Positions 9,611 to 46,638 of a stretch of 64,000 nt of DNA are shown here, one piece after another. The notes below the pieces were generated by a model. It made no database searches, was not told where the DNA came from, and saw nothing but the letters and a program-made list of their open reading frames with translations. Location of the stretch: positions 2,542,001 through 2,606,000 of the forward strand of contig NZ_JARRAH010000001.1 in NCBI RefSeq assembly GCF_030553305.1, read 5' to 3'. Every line of letters starts with the position of its first letter. Positions within the stretch are counted from its first letter, which is position 1. Position numbers and translations under genes: made by a program. Origin of the DNA: Halomarina ordinaria (GTDB taxonomy: Archaea; Halobacteriota; Halobacteria; Halobacteriales; Haloarculaceae).

Positions 9611-9651
9611 TTAACCAACGTCGCCATTCTCTCCCGGCAATTGTTGGTTAA
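9611..9651. repeat. Long spaced palindrome, copy 2
   Basis: TTAACCAAC (9611-9619) and GTTGGTTAA (9643-9651) with a 23-base spacer identical in length to copy 1. The flanks are unrelated to those of the other copies. Confidence 0.75.
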
Positions 9652-10074: not shown

Positions 10075-10099
10075 CGGCGAGTCACACCACGACTCGCCG
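10075..10099. other. 9-bp perfect hairpin
   Basis: CGGCGAGTC and GACTCGCCG flank the loop ACACCAC, within the non-coding stretch upstream of the TFB gene. Confidence 0.55.
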
Positions 10100-10221
10100 T
10101 GCTCACGACCGTCGCCCTGGACACGGACCCGCAGTCCGGGCCGGACACGAGAAACGGCTTAAAGCTGGACGCTCGCTCCGGGCGGGTCGGCGCGCGGTGC
10201 TGGTTGGGTGGCCTCCCTATG

Positions 10222-10276
10222 GCGCGCTCTCGCTCGCGCCCACAGGGCGCTCGCGAAGGCGCGAGCGAGAGCGCGC
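10222..10276. repeat. 19-bp perfect inverted repeat
   Basis: Arm 10222-10240 (GCGCGCTCTCGCTCGCGCC) is the exact reverse complement of 10258-10276, with 17 bases between. It could form a very stable stem in RNA about 95 bases before the TFB start codon, so it may be a terminator, attenuator or structured RNA. Confidence 0.7.
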
Positions 10277-10369
10277 AGACGAGTCTGTCGGTCGTGGTCG
10301 CCGAGAAACCCGCGATGGTGGAGCATCGCGGTGTCGGGCGCGTGAGCGCCTTCAGGAGTTGGAACTCCA

Positions 10370-22259: not shown

Positions 22260-22286
22260 GACCCTCGTGTGTTGGATTTCGACAAT

Positions 22287-29035: not shown

Positions 29036-29848
29036 ATGAGTAACGAGCATATTGAGCCGAGAGATGGCGAGGAAATAGAAGCAGCGGCGAGTCTCGACCC
29101 GAAAATCGCCCATCACAGTACGTATATCGACGAGACGAAACGCATCCTTCGTACGTACGTCGATTGTGAGTCCTACGAAGAACTGGAGCGGCGGGTCGTT
29201 GAAGAGAACATCCTGAACAAGGACACAGACGAGTATCGAACGAACATTCTCCGCGAAGTCACACGTCGTCACATCCCCGATAAAGAGGAGTACACAGAGA
29301 CGCCACTAATGAAGATTATGTCGGCTGACGTCCGGAGCGACGTAACCGACTGGTGTCTCTACTACGAATTCGCGCAAGATCCGTTCATTCGCCTCGTCAC
29401 CCTCGATTTCCTGTACCCTGAATTCGAACGGGGAACTCTCTCCGTGCAAGCTACGGACATCGTCACGTTCATCGAATCGATTCAAGAGGACTACGCCGAC
29501 CTGCGTGACCGATCCGAATCGACGATCAACGAAGCCGCCACGAAGTACCTCACCGCACTCCGAAACTACGGGCTCTTAGAAGGCACCCAACGTAAGGAAT
29601 TCGCTGTCATCTACGTCCCCGACGAGACAGTCGCTTACGTCGTCTACCGGCTCTTCCAGAAGGGGGCGAAGTCCGCATCAGATGTCATCGAACACGACGA
29701 CTGGAAGTTATTCCTGATGAACGAATCCGAAGTTCAGCGCCGTATCCGAGATATCTCACCTCAGTATGTGAGCTACGAGAAGCGCGGATCGACAGAACGA
29801 CTAATTACAAAGCATGACAGCATAGAGGACCTAATAGATGCTTTCTGA
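29036..29848 (+). CDS. brxA: BREX protein BrxA (DUF1819)
   Basis: 270 residues, somewhat longer than the usual 200 because of an acidic N-terminus. The DUF1819 core is visible as LYYEFAQDPFIRLVTLDFLYPEFERG (about 115-140), followed by a helical bundle and LTALRNYGLLEG. BrxA is a small winged-helix DNA-binding component required in many BREX systems. It overlaps brxB by 11 bases. Confidence 0.9.
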   Translation: MSNEHIEPRDGEEIEAAASLDPKIAHHSTYIDETKRILRTYVDCESYEELERRVVEENILNKDTDEYRTNILREVTRRHIPDKEEYTETPLMKIMSADVRSDVTDWCLYYEFAQDPFIRLVTLDFLYPEFERGTLSVQATDIVTFIESIQEDYADLRDRSESTINEAATKYLTALRNYGLLEGTQRKEFAVIYVPDETVAYVVYRLFQKGAKSASDVIEHDDWKLFLMNESEVQRRIRDISPQYVSYEKRGSTERLITKHDSIEDLIDAF

Positions 29849-30407
29849 CTTTCAAGCACGGCTCGAAGAAGTAGAACGACTCGTCAGAGACGATAGAGAC
29901 GAAGTCGGAAAGCGCGCTGGAGTTCCCTTCATCGTCTTCACCTACGACCCTGGTGACGAACTCGAAGTCGACGAAGAGGTTCGAAACCTCATCGAGAAAC
30001 TGGAGTATCACGACCAAACCGTCGCAGGAGTCGATATGCGCGAACTGGTCTTCAGCATCCTCGAAGACCGCGGCATCCTAGAGAACGTGATCGATCTCGA
30101 ACGCCGGGATCGAGACCAGTTACTCGACGGACTGAAATCGTCGCTTCTGGACGACGGCGAGATGGGGCAGTTAGCGTCGGCCATCGCAACGGCGGCTGAA
30201 GACGCTGACACTGTGATTGTCTACCGGATGGGTATTCTGTATCCGTTCGCCAGTGCCTCCACACTCATGGGGCAATTAGAAATGAATACACCGGACGACA
30301 CGCCCATCGTATTCTGCTACCCGGCGAAAGTCGATGACAAGAGTTTAAGATTCCTCGATGAATCGGAGGGGACATATTACCGTGCAAGGGTGATCGGACA
30401 TGAGTGA
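29838..30407 (+). CDS. brxB: BREX protein BrxB (DUF1788)
   Basis: 189 residues. The DUF1788 pattern is clear: VPFIVFTYDPGDELEVDEEVRNLIEKL (about 28-54), DMRELVFSILEDRGIL, and VIVYRMGILYPFASASTLMGQL with a final pyrimidine-kinase-like strand PIVFCYPAK. The length matches the family. It overlaps both brxA (11 bases) and brxC (8 bases), indicating tight coupling. Its biochemical role is not known, although it is required for BREX defence. Confidence 0.9.
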   Translation: MLSDFQARLEEVERLVRDDRDEVGKRAGVPFIVFTYDPGDELEVDEEVRNLIEKLEYHDQTVAGVDMRELVFSILEDRGILENVIDLERRDRDQLLDGLKSSLLDDGEMGQLASAIATAAEDADTVIVYRMGILYPFASASTLMGQLEMNTPDDTPIVFCYPAKVDDKSLRFLDESEGTYYRARVIGHE

Positions 30408-33400
30408 TACTACCTCCTCCCACCAGATTCACGAGATCTTCTACCGGCCAATCAATCGGAAGATCGACCGGGTCGTCAAAGTAGATAACGACGACCCGAG
30501 CGTCGTCAAGAAAGAACTCGAAGAGTACATCCTCACGCCACAGCTCGAACGTCACTTCTCGGACGCGTTAGAGGCCGTCATCGATACGGAACACGCACAG
30601 ACGGAAGACGTCGGGATGTGGGTTTCCGGCTTCTTCGGCTCGGGGAAGAGCCACTACATGAAAATCCTCGGGCACATCCTCGAAAACCGCGAGTTCGAGG
30701 ATACACACGCGGCCGAGATGTTCCGGGATCGAATCGAGGGCAACGAGATGCTCGACGGAGCGGTCTCGTCTGTCACCCAGAAGTTCGATTCCGAGGTGCT
30801 GATGTTCCAGATCGGCGCGAAAGCCGACGCATCCGGGAGCGAGTCCATCACGGAGATCATCCACCGTGAGTTCAACATCTCCCGTGGTTACGCCTCGATG
30901 CCCTGGGTCGCCCAAATGGAGCAGGAACTCGAATCACGAGGCGTGTACGACGAGTTCGTCGACGCCATCGAAGCGAACACCGGGAAAGACTGGACGGAAG
31001 CCCGCAAGGACGCCATGTTCGTCCGGTCCGACATGGAGACCGCATTAGTCGAGGCTACCGATGAGTTCGACGACGAAGACGATGCAGCCCGCGCAATCGA
31101 CGACGTTCAGGACAACGTTCTGATCAACGCGTCCACGCTCGCCGAAGACATCGTGGACTACGTCGAACAGCGGGAAGCCGAGACTGGCGACAACTGTCGG
31201 TACTTCGTGTTCATCGACGAGATCTCGCAGTTCATCGGCGACGATGGGCAACTCCTCTTGGAACTCCAGAGCATCGTCGAGGAATTCGGGCAGAAAGGCA
31301 AAGGCAAGGTCTTCCTCGGAGTCACCTCCCAGGAACAACTCCAGCAACTTATTCCCGGCGTCTTGGAGAAGGAAGCCGAGGAGTCGAAAGTCATCGACCG
31401 CTTCCCACACCGGTTCGACCTCACCTCCGAGAACCTCGACAAGGTCGTCCGCGACCGTGTCCTCAGCAAGAAAGGCGAATTCAGAGGCATCCTCGGCAAC
31501 CTGTATGACCAGCACGAAGGTATCCTTTCGGCTAGATACAAACTGGACTCCAGTCAGAGCCTGAAGCCAATTAACGAGGATAACTTCATCGACTGCTATC
31601 CGTTCCTTCCCTACCAACTCGATATCCTTCCGGAGATGTTCAAGGCTCTCGGGAAAGGCTCAGACGACCAGCTGGCAGGGAGTGAACGCACACTGATCGA
31701 CGTCACCCAGAGCGTCCTCAAAGACGAGGCCCATCTCTACAACGACGAACTCGGGGCGCTCGTCACGCTGGACATGATCTTCGACGAGATCAGCAACGAC
31801 ATCCCCAGTAGTGACGTCAAGTCGATCCGCGAGGCGCGACCGAAAGACGCCGATCCGGAAATCGCACGACGCGTCCTCAAGTCCCTGTACCTCCTCCAGC
31901 AGCTCCCGTGGATTCCGAACACGGCCGACAACATTGCAACGTCACTCCAGACGGAACTCGGCCCCACGCAGCAACTGGAGGGTGACGTCGAAAAGACGCT
32001 CGATGCCCTTGTCAACGCCGGCTACGTCGGTCGGAGTGAAGAAGGCTACCGGTTCCTCCGTGAGACCGAGCGGGAACTCGAAAACGAGATCAAAGGCATC
32101 GAAGTCGGCCCAGGTGACATCCGGCGCTCGTCCAAACGCTTCCTGAACGACATCCTCGACGAAACGTCCCGTGTCAACTACCAAGGGAAGACGTTCCAGG
32201 TGAACCTGAGCATTGACGGCGAGGAAATCACGTCGAAGGGCCACATTGACCTCAAAACGTACTCGCCGATATACCAGCGATACGAGGATCTCGATCCGGA
32301 CGGCCTGAAAACGCAGAGCTTCAGCGAGGACGGCACACTGTACTGGATCGCCGACAACGAGAAACAGCACGCCATCTACGAGAAGCTGAAATCGATCTAC
32401 CAGATCAACACCGTTGTCAAAGAAAAGCGCGGCAACGAACTCAGCCAGGAGGAACAGGAAGCCCTCGGACAGAAGCAAGAAGACCTCCAGCGCCTCCGCA
32501 ACGAAGTTGAACGCGAGTTCAAACGCAGCTTCCAGCGCGGAGTCCTCATTTACAACGGCGACACCGAGGAGTTCGACACCACGAGCACCTCGCTTACTTC
32601 GCTCGTTGCCCGGAAGACGGACAATGCCATCCCGAAGGTCTTCACGAGCTTCAAACACGGCTCCGCGACGGTCAAAGACCGACACATCGAGCAGATCTTC
32701 GGCGACCTCGACGGCTCGTCGAACCCGTCGGTCTTCTCCGACCTGGGTGTCGTCCAGGACGGCGATCTCATCGCCGAAGCCCGAATCGCCTCGGAAGTCG
32801 AAGACGAGATCCAACGCCGTGAGAAAGCAGGCGAGTCCCGCACCGGAAGCGACCTGATCGACCACTTCGCCGAACCGCCGTACGGCTGGAGCCGAGAAGT
32901 CGTCAGGCTCGCCGCAGCCGTGCTCTTCCGTAACGGCTCGATCATCCCGACGTACAAGGAACGGACCTACGGGACGTACACGGAAGACGGCGCACAGGAA
33001 GTGTTTACCCAGGTCACGAAGTTCAAGTCCACCTCCTTCGACGAGCGCGAGACCGTAGACATCGACACGCGAACGGACGCCAAACAGCTCCTTGACCGCC
33101 TGTTCGACCGCAAGGTCAAATCCACGGACCAGGCTGTTGATGAAGGCGTTCGAGAGGAAGCCAACACTTGGGTCTCGACCACCAGCACACTCCTCTCGCA
33201 GCTCCGGCGGGTAGACTTCCCGCTCACGGACGACGTCGAGCAGTTCCAAACCCGACTGAAGAACCTGCTTCAACAACCCACGTCGGCCAAGCGCATCAAG
33301 CAGTTCGTCGAATTCGAGGACGAACTCGAAGGCCTCACCAAAACCGCGAAAGACGTCGCCCAGTTCTGCGGTGAGAACGGCGGCGAAAACCGACTGAAAG

Positions 33401-34044
33401 AATACGAGACGATACAGCGATTCATCACGACCGAGTGGGAATCGCTCGTCGACGAGGCAGATGACCACTCGGCACTCGTGGACATCAGCGACGACGCGCG
33501 TGACGCCGCCGACCGCGTCAAGAACACGCTGGACACCGAGGGCGTCATCAGCCAGTGGAACAACGTCAAGACGGACTATCGAGCCGCAGCAGAAGCCTTC
33601 ACCGCGACCTACGAAGCGCTGTACGAGAAACGGCACGAAACGTACACAAACTCCATCGACTCGGTGAAAGCATACGCTGGCTCCGACATCGACGAGGACG
33701 ATCTCGACTCGGCATTGTCGGACCTAACGGAACGGCAGGGCGACGGGTCGGTGGATCTGGATATCTCGAACAAGGACCACATCAGTCCGGACCCCTCGCT
33801 CACCCGCCTCATAGAACACATCCAGACCGTCGACGCGTACGAGAGCGGGGCGAAAACCAAAATCGACGACTTGGACGATGACGACGACGATGGAACGGTC
33901 CGCGAGAGTGTAGACATCGACGATATCTTCGGGAGCGTCGTCGTGACTGAACCCGGAGACATCGACGCACCAATCAGTGAACTACGGGGGGAGATCGAGA
34001 CCCTCCTCGACCAGGACGGTGACGTAGAGATTCGGTTCCGGTAA
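30400..34044 (+). CDS. brxC: BREX ATPase BrxC
   Basis: 1214 residues. Walker A GFFGSGKSH is near residue 75, as in all BrxC/PglY proteins, followed by YFVFIDEISQFIGDD (Walker B, about 267-281) and LGVTSQEQL. Long helical regions follow; an acidic low-complexity run near 1160 is a halophile feature. BrxC is the P-loop ATPase that assembles with the methyltransferase and PglZ. Codon use is GC-rich and matches pglZ but not the central part of pglX. It is followed by 190 bases without a same-frame gene before pglX. Confidence 0.93.
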   Translation: MSDTTSSHQIHEIFYRPINRKIDRVVKVDNDDPSVVKKELEEYILTPQLERHFSDALEAVIDTEHAQTEDVGMWVSGFFGSGKSHYMKILGHILENREFEDTHAAEMFRDRIEGNEMLDGAVSSVTQKFDSEVLMFQIGAKADASGSESITEIIHREFNISRGYASMPWVAQMEQELESRGVYDEFVDAIEANTGKDWTEARKDAMFVRSDMETALVEATDEFDDEDDAARAIDDVQDNVLINASTLAEDIVDYVEQREAETGDNCRYFVFIDEISQFIGDDGQLLLELQSIVEEFGQKGKGKVFLGVTSQEQLQQLIPGVLEKEAEESKVIDRFPHRFDLTSENLDKVVRDRVLSKKGEFRGILGNLYDQHEGILSARYKLDSSQSLKPINEDNFIDCYPFLPYQLDILPEMFKALGKGSDDQLAGSERTLIDVTQSVLKDEAHLYNDELGALVTLDMIFDEISNDIPSSDVKSIREARPKDADPEIARRVLKSLYLLQQLPWIPNTADNIATSLQTELGPTQQLEGDVEKTLDALVNAGYVGRSEEGYRFLRETERELENEIKGIEVGPGDIRRSSKRFLNDILDETSRVNYQGKTFQVNLSIDGEEITSKGHIDLKTYSPIYQRYEDLDPDGLKTQSFSEDGTLYWIADNEKQHAIYEKLKSIYQINTVVKEKRGNELSQEEQEALGQKQEDLQRLRNEVEREFKRSFQRGVLIYNGDTEEFDTTSTSLTSLVARKTDNAIPKVFTSFKHGSATVKDRHIEQIFGDLDGSSNPSVFSDLGVVQDGDLIAEARIASEVEDEIQRREKAGESRTGSDLIDHFAEPPYGWSREVVRLAAAVLFRNGSIIPTYKERTYGTYTEDGAQEVFTQVTKFKSTSFDERETVDIDTRTDAKQLLDRLFDRKVKSTDQAVDEGVREEANTWVSTTSTLLSQLRRVDFPLTDDVEQFQTRLKNLLQQPTSAKRIKQFVEFEDELEGLTKTAKDVAQFCGENGGENRLKEYETIQRFITTEWESLVDEADDHSALVDISDDARDAADRVKNTLDTEGVISQWNNVKTDYRAAAEAFTATYEALYEKRHETYTNSIDSVKAYAGSDIDEDDLDSALSDLTERQGDGSVDLDISNKDHISPDPSLTRLIEHIQTVDAYESGAKTKIDDLDDDDDDGTVRESVDIDDIFGSVVVTEPGDIDAPISELRGEIETLLDQDGDVEIRFR

Positions 34045-34131: not shown

Positions 34132-34155
34132 ACACGCCGAATACTTGCTGGTTGT

Positions 34156-34230
34156 ATGTCATCGCGGGCGGGAATCCCGACACAGCGTACTGCCGTCCCG
34201 CCCGTTTCGTGGCAGTGCGCGACCCTCTGA
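34156..34230 (+). CDS. Possible 24-residue leader peptide before pglX
   Basis: ATG-started frame (MSSRAGIPTQ ... CATL) ending TGA five bases before the pglX ATG. It begins about where a leaderless transcript from the TATA box at 34123 would start. It could couple or attenuate pglX translation. No sequence conservation can be judged from one genome. Confidence 0.3.
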   Translation: MSSRAGIPTQRTAVPPVSWQCATL

Positions 34231-34235
34231 TATCC

Positions 34236-37200
34236 ATGTCCACGACACACGGTCAACCCGGTCTCTCGTCGGAACAGCGCTCAACTATCCGAAGCACCAT
34301 CCTCAGCACGCGCCACACGCTCGAAGATGAACTTAGACGCCAGCTCGAAAGATACGGTATCTACGAGAACAAGCGACTCCCACTCGAAGACCTGTCCCAT
34401 CTCTCAGCAGAAGACCGCCACACTCGACGAACGCTGGACGCCGCTATCGAGCGAGAACTCGAATCCACGGAAGGCGATCTGGAGCGGTCGATCACCAACT
34501 ACGTCCGCGAAGCAACGAAGACTTACCTCAACCGGTTCGTCGCGCTGAAAACCATCGAGGTTCGTGGCCTCGTCGAGGAAACCATTACAGAGCGTCCAGA
34601 GTACGGCAACCGGTCGTACATACACCACACCGTGGCGGAGATCGCCGGCGAGCTAACCAACGCTCCAGACGACGGCTTCGGTGCCGCACTAGACCTAGCG
34701 TATCAGGAAATCGGCGCAGAGATTCGAATGATCTTCGAGGAATCCGAACACACCGCTATCGACCTCGATGCACAGGTTCGAGAGGAAGTTCTTGACGAAC
34801 TGGATGCAATCGATGACGAAGCGTGGGAGAGTGACGAAGCGCTCGGCTGGGTGTACCAGTATTTCGGTGAGGAAGAACGCGAAGAGATCGACGACCGCGT
34901 CGACGAAGAGAACTACAAGATTGCTGGGACGGACATCGCCACGAAGACACAACTGTTCACTCCGCGGTACATCGTCGAGTGGATGGTCGACAACTCGTTG
35001 GGTCGGACGTGGCTCGAAATGCAGGGCGAACGGACGAATATCGACGATAAAGAGAATTGCTTCTACCTTGCCCCGCTGGCAGAATCCTTAATTGATCGAG
35101 AGACGAAAGCGGTTGAGAACATAACGGTTCTTGATCCTGCTTGTGGCAGTGGTCATATGCTGTTCTATGCTTTTGATGTACTCTACCAGATGTATCTGGA
35201 GGAAGGAGAGATCCCCGAGAAATATATCTCGCGTGAAATTCTTCGGAACAATCTCTACGGAATTGATATTGACTCTGGTGCAGCACAAATTGCAGCACTG
35301 TCACTATATCTCAAAGCGAAAACACGGGCTCCAAATGTAGAAGTCGACCAGATCAATGTCGCCTCGGCAGATGCAGTCCTAATAAATGGTGAGAAAAAGG
35401 AGGAAGTTCTCAGCCGAACACAATCGGAACTCGAAAAAGAAATTCTTGATCAGATATGGACTAGCTTCGAACACATCCGAGAATGGGGAAGTCTTGTCCG
35501 AGTTGAAGAGCGTATCGAGGAGATTATTGACGATTACCGAGATGAGCTCCAAGCCGCGGGCCAATCCAAGTTCACACAAAGTGGAGGGCTTGAGAAGCAA
35601 GCTTCTGTCGTCTCGTTCTCGGATGATGAATCTGAATCATGGGGGGCTGTGAAAGAGCGGCTACTTGAGAACGCCCGTGAAATAGCTCGAATAGCGCTTA
35701 ACGAGGATAACCCAGTTGATGAAATGTTTGCTGCAGAGGTGTCAAAGACGGTTGAACTTCTGGATATCCTTATTCATGATTACGACGTGGTTGTCGCTAA
35801 TCCACCTTACTTAGGTAGCGCAAAAATGGGAGATAATCTTAAGCAATACGTTAAAGACGGGTATGTTGGTACCCGTGACCTGTATGCTGCCTTCATTCAG
35901 CGATCCTGGGAGTTCGCCAAAGAAAACGGGTATGCATCGCTAGTCACACCCGAGAACTACATGTTCTCATATAGCTATCGAAAACTACGTCGAATTCTAC
36001 TTCAAAACCATCAATTTGTCGAGGGTGTCCACCTCTCCCGATATGGATTTGACCAACAAAAAGACGCTTACACAATTCCGTTCCTTCTTCGCAATAGTGA
36101 GCCCGAGGAGCTCGATAAAACACGCTTCTATCGCATGACTCACGAACAGGATCTGTACGATAACTATGAGAAGAAAATAAAGGGCCTGAACAGCTTAGTC
36201 GGACAAATAAGAAATGAAGAATATTCTGATGATATCTACGTCGTGAATCCAAACGACTTCCTATCAATCGGCCGACAGCCGTTCCTGTACTGGTTTGGTG
36301 ATTCCATTCTCAACCTATTCTCCCAATATCCTGCAATAGAGGAATCGGTTGAAGTAAAACAGGGGCTAGCTACGGGAGACGATGATCGATTTGTGAGAAA
36401 ACATTGGGAGGTGCCACCGGCGGAGTTGGAAAGTGATTATGCCCCATATCAAAAAAGTGGTTCTTCTTCTCCCTACTATGACACGCAACGTGACTATCTC
36501 TATTGGAAAGACGACGGTAAAGAAGTCAAGGAATATGATGGGAGCTATCCTCGTAATCCCGACTACTATTTCCGAGAGGGAATATCATTCCGAGGTTTCG
36601 GAAATTATGCAGTTGCTCGTGAAAAGCCAGATGATACTATCTTCTATCACAAATCGCACTTTGTCTACTCACCGGAGATAAACGATCAATATTTACTCGG
36701 TTATGGTAATTCTACTCTGGTTCGTTTCCTCTTGAATGGAATCAATCCGTCGTTGAATTTCGAAGTCGGTGACGTGAAGCGACTACCTATTGAACCGGAA
36801 CCAGAGCAACAACAAGAGGTAGAGAACCTCGTCAACCGTGCACGCGACCGTAGAAAGCAGTTAGTCGCATTAGATGAGACCGGTGATGAATTTAGCCCAG
36901 AAGTTTTCGCTAATCACGTTCAGGGAGGAGTAAGAGAACTTCTGCATTATGAAGATCAGCTCAATGCAGAAGTAGGTCTAATCCACGGACTTATCGACCC
37001 AATAATCTATGACGAGTACTCAATACCAACGGAAGAGCGAAACCGGCTCTACAATAATTTGCCTAAGAATTTGTCAACATATCCTGTTGTGGAAAACTTG
37101 GAGGCCGATTATGCAATTCTCAATAATGATGTGCCCAAAGAGAATCTGTCACCGGACGAGTATGAGTCTTTACTCTCTAATATTGTCGAAAGCCCGGTAG

Positions 37201-37961
37201 AAATCCGTGATGCAGCGGAAGAATTGGAAATCTCTCCCCTAACCATCGCAGATGCACGATATATGGAGGATCTCTATGAGGCGGAGAGACTCGAACAAGC
37301 TGCTGGCCGAGTTCTATCGTTCTGTCTTGGATTGATTTTCGGACGTTGGAACGCCGACCAAGACACAGAACCTGTAAGTGATGGGATGGTTGTATTTGAC
37401 GGGAGTGCTGGTCAAAGTGTAAGGAAGCAAATCTTGAGTTGCATAGAGACGTTTTCCGATGATGATTCGGCTATGCTGTCGTCTCTCGAAGGTTCACTGG
37501 GAACTTCTCTAGACGATTGGTTACGTGGGTCATTCTTCCGATATCATCATTGTAAGGAATATCGCCGTCGAGGCCAGCGTATTCCGATTTACTGGCAACT
37601 CGAAAGTCCGGACGGTGCGTTTAGTTGCTTCATTTATTACCACGAGATCGACGCAAACACCCTTCCAAAACTACGGGGTCAGTATCTTGACCGGCGTATT
37701 GACGAACTAGAAAACGAACTGGAAACTCTGAGAGCCCAAACTAGCGGCGATAATCCTGAGAAGGAACTTCTGAACAGAAAGGAGAAAGTCCAGAACGACC
37801 TCAACGATATCAAAGAGTTCCGTGCGACCGTGGACGAAATGATCGACGATGGCGTTACAGTAAACCCGGAAAAAGGAATCTGGGAGAACATCAAGGAATG
37901 GGATCAATACGAAGTTCTTCAAACTGGGCTCCCAAAACTAAAATCAAGCTACTTGCGTTAA
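34236..37961 (+). CDS. pglX: BREX DNA adenine methyltransferase PglX (BrxX)
   Basis: 1241 residues from ATG 34236; an in-frame TTG at 34152 would add 28. The AdoMet motif I DPACGSGHMLFYAF is near residue 299 and the catalytic NPPY (ANPPYLGSAKM) near 521, typical of N6-adenine methyltransferases. The C-terminal half carries the target-recognition region and ends in a coiled coil (about 1150-1190). PglX marks host DNA so that BREX discriminates invaders. The first 270 codons are GC-rich like brxC. From about 35050 to 37650 the gene is clearly AT-richer with different codon choice, which suggests replacement of the catalytic and specificity part by recombination. Confidence 0.93.
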   Translation: MSTTHGQPGLSSEQRSTIRSTILSTRHTLEDELRRQLERYGIYENKRLPLEDLSHLSAEDRHTRRTLDAAIERELESTEGDLERSITNYVREATKTYLNRFVALKTIEVRGLVEETITERPEYGNRSYIHHTVAEIAGELTNAPDDGFGAALDLAYQEIGAEIRMIFEESEHTAIDLDAQVREEVLDELDAIDDEAWESDEALGWVYQYFGEEEREEIDDRVDEENYKIAGTDIATKTQLFTPRYIVEWMVDNSLGRTWLEMQGERTNIDDKENCFYLAPLAESLIDRETKAVENITVLDPACGSGHMLFYAFDVLYQMYLEEGEIPEKYISREILRNNLYGIDIDSGAAQIAALSLYLKAKTRAPNVEVDQINVASADAVLINGEKKEEVLSRTQSELEKEILDQIWTSFEHIREWGSLVRVEERIEEIIDDYRDELQAAGQSKFTQSGGLEKQASVVSFSDDESESWGAVKERLLENAREIARIALNEDNPVDEMFAAEVSKTVELLDILIHDYDVVVANPPYLGSAKMGDNLKQYVKDGYVGTRDLYAAFIQRSWEFAKENGYASLVTPENYMFSYSYRKLRRILLQNHQFVEGVHLSRYGFDQQKDAYTIPFLLRNSEPEELDKTRFYRMTHEQDLYDNYEKKIKGLNSLVGQIRNEEYSDDIYVVNPNDFLSIGRQPFLYWFGDSILNLFSQYPAIEESVEVKQGLATGDDDRFVRKHWEVPPAELESDYAPYQKSGSSSPYYDTQRDYLYWKDDGKEVKEYDGSYPRNPDYYFREGISFRGFGNYAVAREKPDDTIFYHKSHFVYSPEINDQYLLGYGNSTLVRFLLNGINPSLNFEVGDVKRLPIEPEPEQQQEVENLVNRARDRRKQLVALDETGDEFSPEVFANHVQGGVRELLHYEDQLNAEVGLIHGLIDPIIYDEYSIPTEERNRLYNNLPKNLSTYPVVENLEADYAILNNDVPKENLSPDEYESLLSNIVESPVEIRDAAEELEISPLTIADARYMEDLYEAERLEQAAGRVLSFCLGLIFGRWNADQDTEPVSDGMVVFDGSAGQSVRKQILSCIETFSDDDSAMLSSLEGSLGTSLDDWLRGSFFRYHHCKEYRRRGQRIPIYWQLESPDGAFSCFIYYHEIDANTLPKLRGQYLDRRIDELENELETLRAQTSGDNPEKELLNRKEKVQNDLNDIKEFRATVDEMIDDGVTVNPEKGIWENIKEWDQYEVLQTGLPKLKSSYLR

Positions 37962-38003: not shown

Positions 38004-38684
38004 TCAAGGTACTGTGGTTTTTAGGAATGTTTGAATACGATTGATTGCTGGTTCAATATCTTCAGTTCTCCGAAGCCCCTGTATCACGAACCGTCCTGTT
38101 GAATATAGCATAAAAGTGGCCGAAAAATCATCCAGTCGGACAATAGCAGCGGGAAATTGTTCTGGCTCGTATTCCACCGTCAGCCCAGGATCATTGTCAC
38201 CGAGTGGAATCTCTTCCAGTTGGAGTGGAGTTCCCAGATCACCGCTCACAGCGATGTTCATTATCTCTGGGCGTTCTAACAAGGTGGCCTCGTGACCAAT
38301 TTCACAAACACGATTGATTATTTTTTCAATATATTCTGCAGCCTCTTCTGAAGACAGGCACCCATAAACAAATAGTCTCTTATTTGACCAGTCACGACCG
38401 CTTATAATAACCCGAACATTAGAATCTGGAGGTGCGTATTTGTGGCCGTTATCCGTACGCTCAAAGCCATTAAGCATCTCCAATTTGGTTGGATCCATCC
38501 GAACGATAGCCTTGTGCATCATCGAATGTGGTGAGTATTCCACACCAGACCCCGTCTCAAACCTTTGTTTTCTGCGGTCTCCCTTGGTCATGTTACTGTA
38601 AAGTTTCCCAAGGTAGAGACCTGAGTCTTTTGCATATCTATCATCAGAGTCTACCTCGGATGAGGTAGATTCCCGAAACAACAA
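38004..38684 (-). CDS. Divergent TATA-binding-protein-like protein inside the BREX locus
   Basis: 226 residues. The C-terminal repeat is recognisable as TBP: MNIAVSGDLGTPLQLEEI ... YEPEQFPAAIVRLDDFSATFMLYSTGRFVIQGLRRTEDIEPAINRI (about 140-222). The first repeat is more diverged but alignable (YSPHSMMHKAIVRMDPTKLEM ... RLFVYGCLSSEEAAEYIEKIINRV), with an inserted loop and a 45-residue N-terminal tail. Standard archaeal TBPs are about 185 residues. The DNA-contacting Phe pairs and the second-repeat GSGK loop are altered (YSTGR). It is transcribed against the BREX genes, convergent with pglX and divergent from pglZ, and shares the AT-richer base composition of the pglX centre. A BREX-specific transcription regulator or DNA-distortion sensor is possible. 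Confidence 0.8.
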   Translation of the reverse strand: MLFRESTSSEVDSDDRYAKDSGLYLGKLYSNMTKGDRRKQRFETGSGVEYSPHSMMHKAIVRMDPTKLEMLNGFERTDNGHKYAPPDSNVRVIISGRDWSNKRLFVYGCLSSEEAAEYIEKIINRVCEIGHEATLLERPEIMNIAVSGDLGTPLQLEEIPLGDNDPGLTVEYEPEQFPAAIVRLDDFSATFMLYSTGRFVIQGLRRTEDIEPAINRIQTFLKTTVP

Positions 38685-38711
38685 TCAGCCCCCGCTTGAA
38701 ATGAGAACATA

Positions 38712-41138
38712 ATGGGAGATCTCGCGGATAGTATTATCACGGAACTCCGGCAGAAGTTCGACCGACACCCGGTATGGGTGTGGTACGACGCCCAGGAGAA
38801 GTACAAGGGCGTCCTCGACGAGGTCGAATCAGAACTTGACAACGTCACGCTCGCACGCTACAAAGGCAGCTACTTCGAACTGAAGCGCCGTCTCCACGAG
38901 GAGGATCCGAACTACGAGCAGAACTGGCTGTTCTACATCCCCGAGTCACGAAACGACGCCGAGTGGTTCCGTGATGTCCACGCCCTCGGGCGACAGTATC
39001 GCGTCGGTCAAGACATCGACGACACGCCCGTGACGCAGTTCCTCGTCGAACACGACGAAGAAATCCCCGACGCATACGAGGACTGGGGACAGAACCGCGA
39101 AGTTCAGCGCCTGGCGTTCTTTTGCGTTCTCTTCGACACTGCTGGCCCGGCGACCAACGACTGGGTTCGAACCTACCTCTCGAACCCGGAAGAGTACCGT
39201 GAGACAATTGAAGACAACGCGATGGCCGACGCCTGGGACGCCCAGCTCCGCGAGGAGTACGGTGTCACCGCGGGACTCGATCCGAAGGAGCTGGCGACTC
39301 AGCTCCTCTTCGGCGAGGTGGCCAGCCGAGCACCGACGTCCCGATACGACGAACTCGCTGCTGACGACACTCGCGCTGCTGCGGCGTTCTGTGACGAGTG
39401 GCAACAATATGCCCCCGCCGAGTTCACGCGATACGCACAGAAAATCGCGGAAGACTACGACCTTGCGAAGGCCATCATCGACTCCGACCGGATTCACTGG
39501 GATGCGACGGCGTTCAAGGGTATCGACATGGGTCTCATCCGGCTCGTGATGAAACGACTCGCCGACGAGACCTATGCAGATCTCCCCGATATCGCGGCAG
39601 ACCTCCAGCAGACAGTCACTGAGCGCCAAGACAGCTTCTGGAGCAACGAGGACCTCGTCGATTGGTCAGTCCCAGTCCTGGCGGTCGAAACCCTCCAGCG
39701 TGTCGGAACTATCGACGCCGACGAAGCCAAGACGCTCTCCTCGTCGGAACTCGCCCAGAAGTATACGAGCGACGACGGGTGGTGGCAAGTCGATGCGGCC
39801 TATCGGCAGTACATCAACGCCACCCGAAAGGCCACGTTTCCCTATCCGAACGAAACCACGGTCAAACAGCGGGTTACGCAACACTACATGTCCTTCCTTC
39901 AGGGGGTGAACCGGCCGCTTGCGGACATCCTGAGTGACGATCCGACCCTCGGGACACCGCAGACCTCCTTCTACGATGAATTCGCGGATCTTGAGAACGG
40001 GACCGCGATCATCATCTGTGACGGGCTTCGCTACGAACTCGCCGAAGCAATTAAACAGAACTTGGGCCGACGGACTGACTTCGAGCAAGACCTGAGCGCA
40101 GTCAGCGCAGCCCTCCCCTCGATCACCGAAGTAGGGATGGCTGCACACTTACCCGGGGAACTCGGCCTCGCACTCGAAGACGATGACCTCGTCGTGACTA
40201 GCGGCGGTGAGGAAATGACCGGGAAATCAGACCGCGTCGAACGACTCAGCGCCGCAGGCTTCGAAGTGGTGGATATGGACGAGGTGAGCAGCATCTCGTT
40301 GGAGGACTTGACGGAGTCTGACCCGGTTCCCCGAGTCGTCTACTCCGGAACGATAGACAAACTCGGTGAGAGTCTCGACGACGATGCGGCGTTCAGCCAG
40401 GTTGCCTCCCACGTCGATGACGTCGAACGGACAGTCCAACGATTGAAGCAGGCCGGATACACTCGGTTCGTCATAACGAGCGACCACGGGTTCCTCTATA
40501 CGGACCGGTTGTCCGACGACCTCAAAGTCGAATCACCCGATCTCGCTCCAGTTGTCAAACGACGGTTCGCAGCCGCCGACAGCGATGCTCCACTCGTCGA
40601 TACGGACGAATTCATCGAAGTCGATTCCGATGCGCTGTCTGACCTCGGCATCAACGCCCCAGAACTCAAGCTGCTCTTCCCCCGGAGTGTCGCCTGCTTC
40701 AAGGCCCAAGGCGGGAATATGCAGTACTTCCATGGCGGGATTTCACTCCAAGAACTACTCGTTCCGTGTCTTTCTGTGACTACTGGCGAGATCGAAGAAA
40801 GCGCGTCGATCAGTTACGACGTCTCGATCCCAGACCCAATCACGAACTCGATAATCTCTGTCGAGATCGAAGCCAAGAGCGGACAAGTGGCCTTCGACCC
40901 AGCGCCGATTCTGGAGATCCGTGCGAACATCGACGATGAACCGGTTGCAGACCCCGTAACGATGGAGGTCTCGCCTGGAACCAATAGTGAACGTGTCCGG
41001 CTCAAACAGGGAGCAATCTCCGGCGAGAACTCCGTCCAGTTCGAAGTCATCGACACCGACACCCGAGAAACGATCACGCGGAAAACGGTAGAACTCGATC
41101 TGCTCTTCGGAGACGACGATATGGGATTCGACGTCTAA
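38712..41138 (+). CDS. pglZ: BREX phosphatase-fold protein PglZ
   Basis: 808 residues. The alkaline-phosphatase-superfamily PglZ domain has IIICDGLRYELAEAIKQ (metal-ligand Asp, about 435) and TSDHGFLYTDRL (about 588). The N-terminal 380 residues are the helical region typical of BREX-type PglZ (KFDRHPVWVWYD at the start), and the C-terminus is a beta domain. In BREX it forms a complex with PglX. It starts 28 bases from the divergent TBP-like gene, so its promoter must overlap that gene's 5' end. Base composition returns here to the high GC of brxC. Confidence 0.93.
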   Translation: MGDLADSIITELRQKFDRHPVWVWYDAQEKYKGVLDEVESELDNVTLARYKGSYFELKRRLHEEDPNYEQNWLFYIPESRNDAEWFRDVHALGRQYRVGQDIDDTPVTQFLVEHDEEIPDAYEDWGQNREVQRLAFFCVLFDTAGPATNDWVRTYLSNPEEYRETIEDNAMADAWDAQLREEYGVTAGLDPKELATQLLFGEVASRAPTSRYDELAADDTRAAAAFCDEWQQYAPAEFTRYAQKIAEDYDLAKAIIDSDRIHWDATAFKGIDMGLIRLVMKRLADETYADLPDIAADLQQTVTERQDSFWSNEDLVDWSVPVLAVETLQRVGTIDADEAKTLSSSELAQKYTSDDGWWQVDAAYRQYINATRKATFPYPNETTVKQRVTQHYMSFLQGVNRPLADILSDDPTLGTPQTSFYDEFADLENGTAIIICDGLRYELAEAIKQNLGRRTDFEQDLSAVSAALPSITEVGMAAHLPGELGLALEDDDLVVTSGGEEMTGKSDRVERLSAAGFEVVDMDEVSSISLEDLTESDPVPRVVYSGTIDKLGESLDDDAAFSQVASHVDDVERTVQRLKQAGYTRFVITSDHGFLYTDRLSDDLKVESPDLAPVVKRRFAAADSDAPLVDTDEFIEVDSDALSDLGINAPELKLLFPRSVACFKAQGGNMQYFHGGISLQELLVPCLSVTTGEIEESASISYDVSIPDPITNSIISVEIEAKSGQVAFDPAPILEIRANIDDEPVADPVTMEVSPGTNSERVRLKQGAISGENSVQFEVIDTDTRETITRKTVELDLLFGDDDMGFDV

Positions 41139-41263: not shown

Positions 41264-43291
41264 ATGAGTACTGAGGACGTCGATCAGAAAGCTCTCGACG
41301 TCTTTCCCGGACGCGTCGTCCGGAAGGATCTCGTTCAAGATATCAAGTCGGGAGTGAACGTCCCCACCTATGTCCTGGAATATCTCATCGGACAATACTG
41401 CGCCACTGACGATGAGGAATCACTTGAGGAGGGGCTGGAAAAAGTCAAACAAATTCTGTCGAAGCACTACGTTCGCCCCGACGAGGCCGAGTACGTCAAA
41501 AGCGAAGTACGCGAGCGAGGGCGATACCGTGTCATCGATAAAGTAACCGTCAGACTCGACGAGCAGCAGGACGCCTACATCGGCTCGTTCGTCAATCTCG
41601 GACTCAACGACGTCGAGGTCAACGAACATCTCGTCAGTAAGCACCCGAAGCTGTTGGGCGGCGGTGTCTGGGCCATCATTGACTTGGAATACCTCCCAGA
41701 CAACGCAAAAAGTCCCAAGAGCTTGTTCGGTATCGAATCGTTCAAACCGATACAGGTGTCGAACCTCGACCTCGACCAACTGAAAGACCGTCGACGAGAA
41801 TTCACGCGCGACGAGTGGATGGATCTTCTCCTCCAGAGCGTCGGGTACGACCCTTCCGCGTTCAGCGACCGCGAGAAGCTACTCTTTCTAACTCGGTGTC
41901 TCCCTCTCGTCGAGTCCAACTACAACTACGTCGAATTAGGGCCCCGCGGAACGGGAAAGAGCTATCTGTACCGTGAAATCAGCCCTCACTCGATCCTCAT
42001 CTCCGGTGGAAAAACCACCGTTGCGAAGCTCTTCCTGAACCTCAATACTGGACGAATCGGTCTCGTTGGCCGTTGGGACGTCGTGGCATTCGACGAGGTC
42101 GGAGGCCTCCAGTTCAGCGACTCTGAAGCGGTCCAGATGCTCAAAGACTACATGGAGTCTGGGAGCTTCTCCCGCGGAACTGAGGAACTCACGGCTCAGG
42201 CTTCGATGGTCTATGTTGGAAACATTGACTTGGATGTCGAAGGCGTTCTCAAGAGCTCCCACCTCTTCGAGCCGTTCCCAGAAGATATGCAGGACCTCGC
42301 CCTCATCGACCGTTTCCACTACTACCTCCCCGGCTGGGAAGTCCCAAAGATGCGGTCCGAGTTCTTCGGTGATCAGTTCGGGTTCATCGTCGATTACTTC
42401 GCCGAGTTTGTCCGCGAACTCCGCAAGGAATCCTATGGCGATGCGATCAACGAGGAGTTCGCATTCGGAGACCACCTGAACCAACGAGACGAAAGGGCCG
42501 TCCGGAAGACGGTATCTGGCCTGCTCAAATTACTCCACCCGCATGGAGAATACACAAAAGAAGAGCTTCGTGAATATCTCGAATTCGCTATGGAGGGACG
42601 TCGTCGCGTCAAAGAACAGTTGAAGCGGATGGGTGGTATGGAGTATCGTGCAGTCGAGTTCTCGTATCTGGACTTAGAAACGAAGGAAGAACTCTACGTT
42701 CCGGTTCCCGAGGAGGCCGATGAGGCTCTCATTCCGCCTGGTACACAGCAAGCAGGGACTGTCTACACTATCGGCGAAAGCGAAGGTCGTCACGCTCCGT
42801 TCCGCATCGAAACACAGACACTCCCTGGCTCTGGCAAAACGAACATCTCGGGGACGCCAGGCAAAAAAATGAAAGAATCGTTCGAGACTGCGTGTGACTA
42901 TCTTCAAGCGAATATGCGGGAACTCCGCCGCGATGAGACGCTGGATGAGTACAATATCAATGTTCAAGTACTCAATCCCTCCGACGCGAATGAAGGAGGC
43001 GAGACGAGTGTCGGCTTGCTTGTAGGAATCGCCTCAGGAATTCTCGATCGACCTGTTCGGTCCCAGACTGTAATTCTGGGTGCTATGAGTCTGATGGGAG
43101 AATTGGTTGCAGTAAGCTCATTGATCGACAAGCTACAATTAGCAGCAGATGCAGGGGCCAAAACCGTGTTACTGCCGGCTAAAAACAAAGAGGATATGGC
43201 GAAGATACCGGACGAGCTTCTTGATCAGCTTCAGCTTGTTTTCTACACAGATCCACTTGACGCCGCTAGCAAAGCAATTCAGATAGACTGA
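41264..43291 (+). CDS. brxL: BREX Lon-like AAA+ protein BrxL
   Basis: 675 residues. The AAA+ core has Walker A GPRGTGKSY (about 226) followed by the BrxL hallmark HSILISGGKTTVAKLFLN and GLVGRWDVVAFDEVGG (about 275). The C-terminal Lon-like protease domain (about 560-675) has a candidate Ser in GGETSVG (about 580) and Lys in LIDKLQLA (about 623), so the Ser-Lys dyad appears intact. BrxL marks type 1 BREX and is a DNA-binding hexamer-forming AAA+ effector. A TATATA sequence immediately precedes the ATG. Confidence 0.93.
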   Translation: MSTEDVDQKALDVFPGRVVRKDLVQDIKSGVNVPTYVLEYLIGQYCATDDEESLEEGLEKVKQILSKHYVRPDEAEYVKSEVRERGRYRVIDKVTVRLDEQQDAYIGSFVNLGLNDVEVNEHLVSKHPKLLGGGVWAIIDLEYLPDNAKSPKSLFGIESFKPIQVSNLDLDQLKDRRREFTRDEWMDLLLQSVGYDPSAFSDREKLLFLTRCLPLVESNYNYVELGPRGTGKSYLYREISPHSILISGGKTTVAKLFLNLNTGRIGLVGRWDVVAFDEVGGLQFSDSEAVQMLKDYMESGSFSRGTEELTAQASMVYVGNIDLDVEGVLKSSHLFEPFPEDMQDLALIDRFHYYLPGWEVPKMRSEFFGDQFGFIVDYFAEFVRELRKESYGDAINEEFAFGDHLNQRDERAVRKTVSGLLKLLHPHGEYTKEELREYLEFAMEGRRRVKEQLKRMGGMEYRAVEFSYLDLETKEELYVPVPEEADEALIPPGTQQAGTVYTIGESEGRHAPFRIETQTLPGSGKTNISGTPGKKMKESFETACDYLQANMRELRRDETLDEYNINVQVLNPSDANEGGETSVGLLVGIASGILDRPVRSQTVILGAMSLMGELVAVSSLIDKLQLAADAGAKTVLLPAKNKEDMAKIPDELLDQLQLVFYTDPLDAASKAIQID

Positions 43292-43449
43292 ACGCGGCAA
43301 GAGACTCTCTGATGCGGTGATCCAGGGATAGCGATGGTCGATTGAGTCCTTGAACTCTCTTTACATTGCCGAGAACTAATTGTGGTCCTCCCAAGCTGTC
43401 AGTCTCGCCAAGAGTGAAGTGTGGCCGATATCTTGGTAGGGAGTGTTCG

Positions 43450-46400
43450 ATGGATTCAACACTTCTTACCGGTCCGAAACACGCCCGATTGGAACAGCGG
43501 GCATTTCAGCGGGCTAATGACATTGCAACTGATTCCCTGGGCAGTATTCTCTACATAACTCGGAACGACGCTCGCCGCAGTGCGGTTGAGGATAGCTGGG
43601 CCGCGTCGCACGACCCGCTTCGTCTTCGTGCCGAGACACTTGATGCGGTCATTCGCGAGTGGTACGAGGACCTCAACGGTCTGGTCCAACCACTCTCAGG
43701 GCAGCTGAACCGCCGGCTCACGGAGTACGGACTCGACAGAACTACGGCCGAAACGACAGGGGCTCTCGCCGGCGAACCCGCCTCGGCTGCCCTCGCGGAT
43801 TCGTTCAGTAGTCGCTTTTCACTCTTCGACGACGCCGGCGTCGGGACTGCCGACGCGCTGGCAGCGGAGTTCGAGGGCTCAGCGCTTGATGACCGTATTG
43901 CGACAGCCACCGTCGACGCCTATCGTCACTACCGGGATCTCCACGCCGACTACGTCGATGAGTGGGTCTGTACCCGGGGAGAGATGTTCCACGCCGTCGC
44001 TTCGACAGAGCGGTCGCTCTCGGCACTCTCACCGGAACTGGATGTCGTCGTCCTCTCTGGGTATCACGAGTTCCGCCCCGTCGAACGTCGCGTCATCGAA
44101 CGAATCGTCGATGAACTCCCGATGATCGCACTGCTACCACTCCATCAGGATGACCGGACTGGTGTCGACGCCGTGGCGGAAGACGCCCTAGAAATTTACG
44201 AATCGCTGGACTTCGAGACGGTAGAACTCGATCACACCGATGATGCCGGGCGGGCCTTCGGAACGATCACCCAAGCTCTCTATCGCCCGAACCCCGACAC
44301 TATTCCGACTCCTGATGCTCTGCGATGGCGGGAACTCCCCACGCCCGAGCGTGAAATTCGCTTCGTAGCCCGCGAACTCCGAACTGAGCTGGCCATTGGA
44401 CGGGATCCCGACGACCTCGCCGTCGTCGTTCCGGGTACCGAGGCCTATTCGGGCTACGTTGAGGACACGTTCGATACATTCGACATTCCGCACGTCACGA
44501 CCGCCGCCTCACAGTTGGATCGGACTTTCACCGGAAGTGTCGTACACGATCTCCTGAACCTTGCCGAACCCGACTCCCGTGCCGAGGACCTCACGTCCCT
44601 GCTGGCGAATCCACTGGTCGATGTTGTCGAGGCCAACCAGGCCAACGCCGTCACGGCAGCTGCTCGCCGGCGTGACACGGTTTCGGTGTCGCCCCTGCTC
44701 GATGACGTCGACGACGAGGCCGCGGCGGTGATCGAGGATCTGCTGGCCACACTGGAGACGCTCCGAACGGGCGACGTCGAGGATGCAACCGAGACGCTCC
44801 GACGGCTGTTGGACGACCAGTTCGACCTGGAGGCGGCAACGGAGGACTACGCCAGCGGTGCCGAGCAAGCTGTCGAACTGCGGGCCCACGACCTCGTGGA
44901 CGAGGTCCTCTCCTCGTTCGAGTCGCTGGCGGCCGTCAGTAGCGACCTCTCTCCATTGGCACTGCTCACTCGCGCCTTCGACGGCGTGCCGATTCGGGTC
45001 CCGCAACGTGCTGCCGGCGGCCACATCGAAGTGATGGGGTTGCTCGACGCCCGGATGCGGTCCTTCGAGAAGGTATTCCTCGTGGGGCTGACGAGTGACC
45101 ATTTCCCGGTGACGCCAGAACGGCCGGCCTTCTTTGAGGAGATGACGGACATCCACCCGCGATTCGACACCGGAGACGAGCGACTCCGTGGCCGCTATCT
45201 CTTCGCGACGCTGCTCGCGAACGTCGACGAACTCACGATCACCACGCCCGAAACGGGCGACGACGAATCTGCCGTCGTCCGGTCACCGATCCTCGACGAA
45301 CTTCAGCGCGTGACTGGAATCGAACCCGAAGACGGCGTCGACAACCGGGTGGGCTCCCGCGAAGACCTCCAGCGACACGTCGCTGAGACCACCGACCGAC
45401 GTGCGGCAGTCAGCCGCGCCGGCGACCGAGGCGACCTCTCACCCGAGCAGACCAAGCGCACAGACCGGGGGCTTCGTTGTGCGGACAACAGGGGAACGAC
45501 TGGCCTCTCCGAACACGACGGCGTGGTGGAACCCGAGACCGTCGCAGAGGTGTATCCCCCGTCGGAGCGGGAACCCTACAGCGCTAGTCGGATCGAGAGA
45601 TACGTCGAGTGTGGCTTCAAATTCTACGCTGACAAGGTTCTCGGAATCGAAGATCCCGACGACGTTGAGGTCGTCCCTACACCCCTCGAAACCGGGTCGT
45701 ACGTTCACGACGTCCTCGAACGGTTTTTCGCGGATTTACAGGACGAGACCGAGGATGGTGTCGATCTCACAGACTTCGACCGGGACGACCTGGCGACGCA
45801 CCTTCGCGAGATCGCCGTCGAGGAACTCCGGGATGCTGACTTCGGGTACGAGGGCCTGTTCCACGAGCGGTGGAAGGCGGAGCTGTTCGCGGGTCTCGGT
45901 GACGATGGGAGCGCTCCGTACGAGGCCGGGAGCAAACCCCACAACGCGCCGGAACAGGGGTTGTTCACTACCTTCCTCGACAATGAACTCTCGCGAGATA
46001 GCGTCGCCCGCCCACACCTGTTAGAGGCACCGTTCGGCGAGGGGCTCCCCGACTCGGATGCGGGTCCGTTCACAGTTGAGCGACCGGACGGTTCGACCGT
46101 CTCGATTCGTGGATACATCGACCGCGTCGACGTGAGCCGGGATGGCGAGCAACCGATACTCACGCTGTACGACTACAAGACTGGTCGAGCACCGTATATG
46201 ACCAAGACGACTGGCGGCACGAAGTTCCAGCTCCCCATCTATCTGCTCGCTGCGGCCAACGTCGTCGACGGTGATCTGTTCGAGCAGGGATCGCTTTCAG
46301 CGACGTACTATCAGGTGCGACCCCCCAACGACCTCAAGGTTCCACGCGGAGTCGAGTCGAAGTTCGATTCAGAGGTCGAACTCCGTCGTTTCCTGAACGA

Positions 46401-46638
46401 TGTCGTTCCGGAGTGGTTGGGCCAGATCGACGAGGCGATCGGGAACGGACGGTTCCATACAACGCTCCTCTCTGCTCGGGGTGCGAACTGCCGATACTGT
46501 GACTACCGGCGGGCGTGCGATGTCCGCCATCACCGCAAGCGGGAGTTCGTCGGCGAGGTTCACGAGGACGATGCTGCGTACGTTCCGCTCCGTGTTCGCG
46601 ACGACGAGGACATCGAGGCGGTGATGAGCGATGACTGA
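43450..46638 (+). CDS. addB: AddB-like PD-(D/E)XK nuclease / inactivated helicase
   Basis: 1062 residues from ATG 43450. The N-terminal and central regions resemble the non-catalytic helicase fold of AddB/RexB. The C-terminal RecB-type nuclease has SASRIERYVECGFKFYADKVL (about 707-727), ETGSYVHDVLERFF, GYIDRVDV and LYDYKTG (about 907). An iron-sulfur cluster is implied by the Cys at about 717 together with C-x2-C-x5-C (CRYCDYRRAC, about 1013-1022), as in AddB. It overlaps addA by 8 bases. Expected role: processing of DNA ends, either repair or degradation of linear invader DNA. Confidence 0.85.
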   Translation: MDSTLLTGPKHARLEQRAFQRANDIATDSLGSILYITRNDARRSAVEDSWAASHDPLRLRAETLDAVIREWYEDLNGLVQPLSGQLNRRLTEYGLDRTTAETTGALAGEPASAALADSFSSRFSLFDDAGVGTADALAAEFEGSALDDRIATATVDAYRHYRDLHADYVDEWVCTRGEMFHAVASTERSLSALSPELDVVVLSGYHEFRPVERRVIERIVDELPMIALLPLHQDDRTGVDAVAEDALEIYESLDFETVELDHTDDAGRAFGTITQALYRPNPDTIPTPDALRWRELPTPEREIRFVARELRTELAIGRDPDDLAVVVPGTEAYSGYVEDTFDTFDIPHVTTAASQLDRTFTGSVVHDLLNLAEPDSRAEDLTSLLANPLVDVVEANQANAVTAAARRRDTVSVSPLLDDVDDEAAAVIEDLLATLETLRTGDVEDATETLRRLLDDQFDLEAATEDYASGAEQAVELRAHDLVDEVLSSFESLAAVSSDLSPLALLTRAFDGVPIRVPQRAAGGHIEVMGLLDARMRSFEKVFLVGLTSDHFPVTPERPAFFEEMTDIHPRFDTGDERLRGRYLFATLLANVDELTITTPETGDDESAVVRSPILDELQRVTGIEPEDGVDNRVGSREDLQRHVAETTDRRAAVSRAGDRGDLSPEQTKRTDRGLRCADNRGTTGLSEHDGVVEPETVAEVYPPSEREPYSASRIERYVECGFKFYADKVLGIEDPDDVEVVPTPLETGSYVHDVLERFFADLQDETEDGVDLTDFDRDDLATHLREIAVEELRDADFGYEGLFHERWKAELFAGLGDDGSAPYEAGSKPHNAPEQGLFTTFLDNELSRDSVARPHLLEAPFGEGLPDSDAGPFTVERPDGSTVSIRGYIDRVDVSRDGEQPILTLYDYKTGRAPYMTKTTGGTKFQLPIYLLAAANVVDGDLFEQGSLSATYYQVRPPNDLKVPRGVESKFDSEVELRRFLNDVVPEWLGQIDEAIGNGRFHTTLLSARGANCRYCDYRRACDVRHHRKREFVGEVHEDDAAYVPLRVRDDEDIEAVMSDD

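Follow-up and report, generated by a model that had tools for sequence, protein, structure and literature searches.

A TBP paralogue without the N-terminal intercalating phenylalanines in a haloarchaeal BREX locus, and the association of such TBPs with methyltransferase-based defence systems

The window analyzed here, a stretch of 64,000 nucleotides from Halomarina ordinaria, contains a BREX locus in which a small gene for a TBP-like protein, referred to as TBPL, is encoded antisense between pglX and pglZ. The features of the locus, where the BREX genes were identified by Pfam and PADLOC matches, are as follows.

29036-29848, plus strand: brxA
29838-30407, plus strand: brxB
30400-34044, plus strand: brxC
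34152-37961, plus strand: pglX, an N6-adenine methyltransferase gene, convergent with TBPL, the two stop codons being 42 bp apart
38004-38591, minus strand: TBPL gene, 195 amino acids from the ATG at 38591; a TBP-fold paralogue with a degenerate N-terminal repeat and an intact C-terminal repeat
38619-38633, minus strand: element GCAAAAGACTCAGGT, extended by nnCTAC, in front of the TBPL gene and as far from its start codon as a BRE/TATA would be
38650-38669, no strand: perfect inverted repeat TCTACCTC-GGAT-GAGGTAGA between TBPL and pglZ, from reading of the sequence
38670-38711, plus strand: block upstream of pglZ with a BRE-like CCGAAAC; blastn identity between loci resumes at 38669-38673
38712-41138, plus strand: pglZ
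41264-43291, plus strand: brxL

All six BREX genes were matched in the order brxA-brxB-brxC-pglX-pglZ-brxL, which corresponds to a type 1-like membership. The minus-strand open reading frame that includes TBPL spans 38004-38684. Translation most likely begins with the ATG at 38591 rather than at the frame end at 38684, because the starts of the orthologues agree and the in-frame codons at 38592-38684 have no conservation between orthologues. The block at 38670-38711 accompanies pglZ in those BREX loci where the slot between pglX and pglZ is occupied, and is likely the pglZ promoter. At the spot of the inverted repeat, the locus G360 contains another inverted repeat with a different sequence (CCACTC...GAGTGG).

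The GC content of TBPL (45.4%) was close to that of pglX between 35.0 and 37.9 kb (45.6%), in agreement with the similarity in base composition that had been noted, while the other, flanking BREX genes measured had a GC content of 53-58%. Comparisons by blastn revealed that the pglX-pglZ slot and the pglX core vary between loci with flanks that are up to ~90-94% identical, the core (~35.5-37.5 kb) being exchanged between loci. Upstream of BREX, the window also encodes an McrB-like protein (22269-25583) that contains EVE and AAA_5 domains. A 473-aa gene with no Pfam match comes next, in the McrC position; this pair (22269-26931) is likely a type IV restriction neighbour of the BREX locus. Directly after brxL, at 43366-50272, a PD-(D/E)XK nuclease (1090 aa) and a UvrD helicase-nuclease (1213 aa) are encoded. 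The two may represent a recurrent partner, since a similar pair follows a methyltransferase-helicase-TBP operon in a Halorientalis marina plasmid (L264). The host genome encodes two more TBPs, of 196 and 242 amino acids.

Two TBP repeats, the second the clearer, had been proposed for the protein, and structure prediction bore this out. The Pfam profile PF00352 matched TBPL in a single stretch, residues 139-222, with a score of 65.5 bits (curated cut-off 22.9) and an E-value of 3.8e-18, and this match covers the second repeat only. A phmmer search against the PDB returned archaeal TBPs, the best at 2.7e-21. The AF2 model, for which canonical TBPs entered the alignment with their C-terminal halves only, had a pLDDT of 90.6 and a pTM of 0.82. 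A model from a mixed alignment was dropped, as MAFFT had misaligned the N-terminal repeat, resulting in a low pLDDT there. The retained model aligned with the M. jannaschii TBP 2z8u_B with a Z-score of 18.3 over 169 residues at 2.2 A (model residues 17-193), and a Foldseek search with it reached 4.7e-11 against solved TBPs. In these predicted structures, both repeats of TBPL form the TBP saddle. The gene order, the reading frame, and the fold thus confirmed the original prediction of an antisense TBP-like protein between pglX and pglZ.

The loss of contact residues was asymmetric between the two repeats. Canonical TBPs have four intercalating phenylalanines, two per repeat, and none was found in the N-terminal repeat of TBPL. 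Both are absent because the segment KYAPPDSNVRVIISGRDWSNK replaces the canonical stretch that includes LIFRSGK, with a shortening of the stirrup region; the DNA-contact loops are therefore altered, as had been suspected. In the model, the N-terminal repeat has fewer strands than the C-terminal repeat, and its stirrup-bearing region forms no full hairpin. The N-terminal repeat carries a conserved motif of its own, S-M-x-H, of which S23, M24, and H26 are invariant among nine orthologues. In the C-terminal repeat, the stirrup phenylalanine F146 is kept, and the second position is Y163 in the window and phenylalanine in most orthologues. The EYEPEQF stirrup was invariant in an alignment of nine TBPL proteins, and the longer EYEPEQFP was invariant or nearly so. 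In the established structures of other TBPs, this stirrup contacts TFB. Compared with canonical TBPs (M. jannaschii 2z8u, P. woesei 1ais), TBPL shares the saddle fold, the C-terminal repeat, and the stirrup, but lacks the N-terminal stirrup together with both N-terminal phenylalanines, and a canonical threonine near the end of the C-terminal repeat is replaced by glutamine (IQG). TBPL is under purifying selection, with a dN/dS of ~0.07 where it was computable for orthologue pairs from different loci.

A loss of the N-terminal and retention of the C-terminal phenylalanine pair has been described for the TbpC-type TBPs of haloarchaea, whose role was left open as "nonfunctional or very specialised" (Becker et al., 2014, PMC4230888); neither "restriction" nor "methyltransferase" occurs in that paper, and no link to defence was made in it. 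TBPL follows the TbpC-type pattern, with a tyrosine at the second C-terminal position in the window, as does the TBP VNG_RS12735 of pNRC100, which lies beside a methyltransferase-helicase operon. TBPL nevertheless differs in forming a separate clade (support 100/99, in a tree built on ~104 columns of the C-terminal repeat), in a more altered N-terminal repeat, and in a promoter element of its own.

Profile and protein searches of haloarchaeal genomes, with one genome per species, identified 12 TBPL genes, all within one order. In 11 of the 12 loci the gene lay within a DNA-methyltransferase defence system, the systems being recognized by profiles derived from these loci themselves and, for a subset, also by PADLOC and Pfam. 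The loci are distributed as follows.

BREX: two loci (the window and L036)
Type I RM: four loci (L037, L039, L042, L136)
Type IIG: two loci (L038, L041)
ARMADA/DISARM-like: three loci (L040, L043, L137), with a DrmD/BrxHII-like helicase, a DrmMI/PglX-like methyltransferase, and a DruE/YprA-like helicase
No recognized system: one locus (L138)

The association was tight and repeated, and an N6-adenine methyltransferase was present in every identified partner system. Among the 11 linked genes, eight were convergent with the system and three co-directional (L042, L043, L136). The antisense, tail-to-tail arrangement was found in the seven loci that bear the upstream element described below and in L037; in these eight loci TBPL faces a methyltransferase gene or the HsdR-peptidase end. 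At L138 (8732-10678), TBPL lies between an unknown protein with a glycine-rich start and an archaellin gene. At the ARMADA-like locus L137, a second TBP gene is found between TBPL and the system, and three consecutive TBP-family genes (9086-11053) include one TBPL with an eroded N-terminal motif. Searches of viral contigs and plasmids returned no TBPL itself.

BREX loci encoding a related PglZ numbered 21 in a survey of 392 genomes (~49-97% identity, plus the window's own). TBPL was found in one other of these loci (L036) and was missing from 19 of the 21, and was accordingly rejected as a core component of BREX. Four loci (L151, L159, L165, L162) contain another TBP in the same pglX-pglZ slot, in sense orientation. 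The remaining slots were empty or held other genes, such as an EVE-like protein, a 353-aa protein, and an SMC-like ATPase. Of these occupants, the first (L152, 7514-8044) was recognized by eye and had no Pfam match, the second (L154, 4746-5807) is an unknown protein, and the third (L163, 5586-8413) was read by eye as SMC/RecN-like. Additionally, an antisense TBP was observed beside pglX in BREX-5 loci of Halococcus dombrowskii and Halanaeroarchaeum sulfurireducens plasmids.

The association extended to divergent TBPs in general. All TBPs in 59 genomes were located and regions of ~14 kb (within 7 kb of the TBP) were read, with detection profiles built from the system proteins that the TBPL loci encode (methyltransferase, HsdR, HsdS, DrmD, DruE, and BREX). 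A system gene was within reach of 34 of the 39 divergent TBPs versus none of the 45 high-scoring, canonical-type TBPs (Fisher 1.6e-18; rank test 7e-12), where the split in score was chosen after the data had been seen, the ordering was nearly clean, and the rank test is independent of the split. The linked TBPs represent at least two separate lineages and include the 242-aa TBP of the host, which is accompanied by HsdM and HsdS (L174). A residue census found the N-terminal stirrup phenylalanine in 44 of 45 canonical and none of 30 defence-linked TBPs, while the C-terminal stirrup phenylalanine was kept in 45 of 45 and 28 of 31, respectively. Apart from TBPL, the linked TBPs were upstream, downstream, convergent, or divergent in 10, 11, 7, and 6 cases, and many are co-directional and overlap with methyltransferase or helicase genes in a co-operonic arrangement.

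Plasmid and virus records outside the survey agreed with this pattern: all ten RM/BREX-linked TBPs lacked both N-terminal phenylalanines and kept both C-terminal ones, and all three unlinked TBPs kept the N-terminal stirrup phenylalanine. This check is not wholly independent, because the gene from Halobacterium sp. DL1 had already entered the survey as locus L176 and the Haloarcula halophila record (L270) resembles the G345 BREX locus. The linked set includes VNG_RS12735 of pNRC100 from Halobacterium salinarum NRC-1, as well as TBPs of two viruses: in HRTV-9 (L271, 2839-3378) a type IIG enzyme is followed by the TBP, and in HJTV-2 (L262, 2674-3288) the TBP is near an N4-cytosine methyltransferase and an Eco29kI-type nuclease. 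Among 50,697 phage records, the only TBPs found were haloviral, next to viral RM genes, and without the N-terminal phenylalanine pair. In an Archaea-wide control, only two weak methyltransferase/BrxL-like neighbours were found among 79 non-TBPL TBP loci; this set came from a scan of public genomes with the TBPL alignment, in which the EYEPEQF pattern drew mostly canonical TBPs. The link between TBPs lacking the N-terminal phenylalanines and methyltransferase defence systems is firm.

Upstream of TBPL, a conserved element (also GCAAAAGASTCAGGT) with the consensus GCAAAAGASTCAGGTnnCTAC was observed on the same strand in seven of the 12 genes, ~25-30 nt before the start codon and at a spacing that is not frame-keeping. 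A degraded variant was common to L136 and L138. The mean information over the 15 columns of the element was 1.7 bits, compared with 0.37 bits for the flank further upstream and at most 0.70 bits among 1000 shuffles. The synonymous sites of TBPL are near saturation (pS mostly 0.7-0.85), so the conservation of the element goes beyond shared ancestry alone. Many transcripts of haloarchaea have little or no leader (PMC4574771); the element would thus sit where BRE and TATA normally are, yet it is not TATA-like. It is a candidate promoter or autoregulatory site of TBPL. Seven genomes were searched with up to one mismatch allowed, and exact copies occurred only at TBPL promoters; the element was unique in the genome of the window, and a wider regulon of exact copies was ruled out. 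It was absent before pglX, pglZ, brxA, and other BREX or defence genes, so a direct control of defence genes through a shared site is unsupported. The other defence-TBP clade had no common upstream element above shuffles.

Together, we tentatively propose, with a probability of about 0.48, that TBPL is a specialised TBP that regulates itself and acts as a transcription factor dedicated to a methyltransferase-based defence module. With the C-terminal repeat and its TFB-recruiting stirrup kept, TBPL could join the initiation machinery in a putative partnership with TFB. The altered N-terminal repeat would be unable to kink a TATA box in its downstream half and would instead bind the element in its own promoter by preference, such that the level of TBPL would be set by autoregulation and would in turn tune the expression of the adjacent methylation and restriction genes. 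In the window, the sites of action may be the divergent intergenic region between TBPL and pglZ and the 3' end of pglX, towards which transcription of TBPL converges. Arguing from these sequence features, TBPL could act as a defence-dedicated initiation factor or as a repressor. The mixed orientations of the TBPs suit a regulator with its own promoter. The main weakness of the proposal is that an element confined to TBPL's own promoter supports autoregulation and not yet the control of defence genes. Of the earlier idea of a dedicated factor controlling BREX, the tie of a TBP-derived factor to defence is strongly supported and a dedicated transcription factor stays the favoured interpretation, but the restriction to BREX is too narrow, as several unrelated methyltransferase systems are involved and only two of 21 related BREX loci carry the gene.

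The chief rival to a regulatory role, and a rather unlikely one, is that TBPL is a subunit of the defence machinery, a minor-groove binder that would help the methyltransferase, translocase, or nuclease complex to recognize or distort DNA, for example at active viral promoters. The constant presence of an N6-adenine methyltransferase in the partner systems agrees with this role, and the co-operonic overlap of many TBPs with methyltransferase or helicase genes also fits a structural subunit; TBPs have moreover been named as components of bacterial TOTE/TALON systems in an excerpt of PMC12458937. However, the slot lacks a TBP in most related BREX loci, whose PglZ is near-identical (two TBPL and four other TBPs among 21), TBPL is antisense to the system in eight of 11 linked loci, most of these with the promoter element, and the TFB-contact stirrup is strongly constrained.

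Two further alternatives are about equally improbable. TBPL could be a guard or substitute TBP that resists or senses viral interference with basal transcription and triggers or maintains the defence module, as TBPs that likewise lack the N-terminal phenylalanine pair are encoded by HRTV-9 and HJTV-2; these viral TBPs, however, adjoin the RM genes of the viruses themselves, which a regulator linked to RM fits at least equally well. Alternatively, an intact TFB-contact stirrup beside a disabled N-terminal repeat could point to an anti-TBP that sequesters TFB and thereby lowers the transcription of viral genes or of the defence module, but an element at promoter position and a conserved new surface on the N-terminal repeat suggest a positive role in DNA binding, and sequestering TFB throughout the cell would come at a high cost. 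Neither the anti-TBP nor the DNA-shape sensor that had been suggested earlier gained positive support from the analysis. Least probable of all is that spare TBP genes merely accumulate in variable defence-island slots, which also hold unrelated genes or nothing, given the linkage of 11 of 12 and 34 of 39 versus 0 of 45, the separate lineages linked, the purifying selection and conserved upstream element, and the occurrence of such TBPs in virus-borne RM loci.

Returning to the regulatory role of TBPL, its best reading by analogy would be an archaeal functional counterpart of the bacterial C-proteins or BrxR/WYL regulators (PMC9122589, PMC9122601). Like these, TBPL is a small gene that moves with diverse defence systems, and the likeness in autoregulation is a proposed analogy; the folds are not homologous, being a TBP fold in TBPL, wHTH-WYL in BrxR, and XRE-type HTH in C-proteins. 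The bacterial TOTE/TALON systems, which combine a TBP with TPR, OB, and effector parts according to a citation in the excerpt of PMC12458937, resemble the TBPL loci in encoding a TBP inside a defence or conflict operon. They differ in being bacterial and in their TPR-CSD partners and NERD or RNase H parts, whereas the haloarchaeal TBPL loci are methyltransferase systems; no TPR-CSD/OB partner, NERD, or RNase H was found among the BREX genes of the window or the Pfam-scanned neighbours of the other TBPL loci. The loci L040, L043, and L137 share their ARMADA/DISARM-like genes (PADLOC DrmMI, DrmD, DruE) with the systems of PMC12458937, an excerpt of which assigns TBPs to TALON/TOTE and mentions none in ARMADA. 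A link of haloarchaeal TBPs with RM, BREX, DISARM, or ARMADA was found in no paper of the open-licence collection searched, where a missing mention is not proof of absence, and a 2026 survey of BREX mentions neither TBP nor TATA.

The many TBP copies of haloarchaea, and the role of the TbpC-type copies among them, have been a question since the first genomes. The class lacking the N-terminal phenylalanines is now tied, with a sequence signature, to methyltransferase antiviral systems on chromosomes and plasmids as well as in viruses, which provides the spare TBPs with a role that can be tested in laboratory haloarchaea. If the proposed regulatory role is true, a general transcription factor would take the place of a helix-turn-helix repressor in the archaeal control of dangerous restriction systems. 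A broader and more doubtful possibility is that haloarchaea maintain an orthogonal initiation channel for antiviral methylation. These TBPs would then have moved off the TATA box, with a new non-TATA core element adopted by TBPL at the least, and would serve as portable basal-factor regulators exchanged among BREX, type I RM, type IIG, ARMADA, and viral RM loci.

A basal-factor set carried by the element itself, which had been suggested from an accessory TFB gene at 10370, was not supported. This gene (10370-11443) encodes a divergent TFB (PF00382, 1.9e-8) with one TFIIB repeat and a weak zinc ribbon, is 28 kb away from TBPL, and was the only TFB found near any TBPL locus. A full TFB gene was observed elsewhere, beside a divergent TBP at L186 (5508-7514) with no methyltransferase nearby, and the two form a possible TBP-TFB pair.
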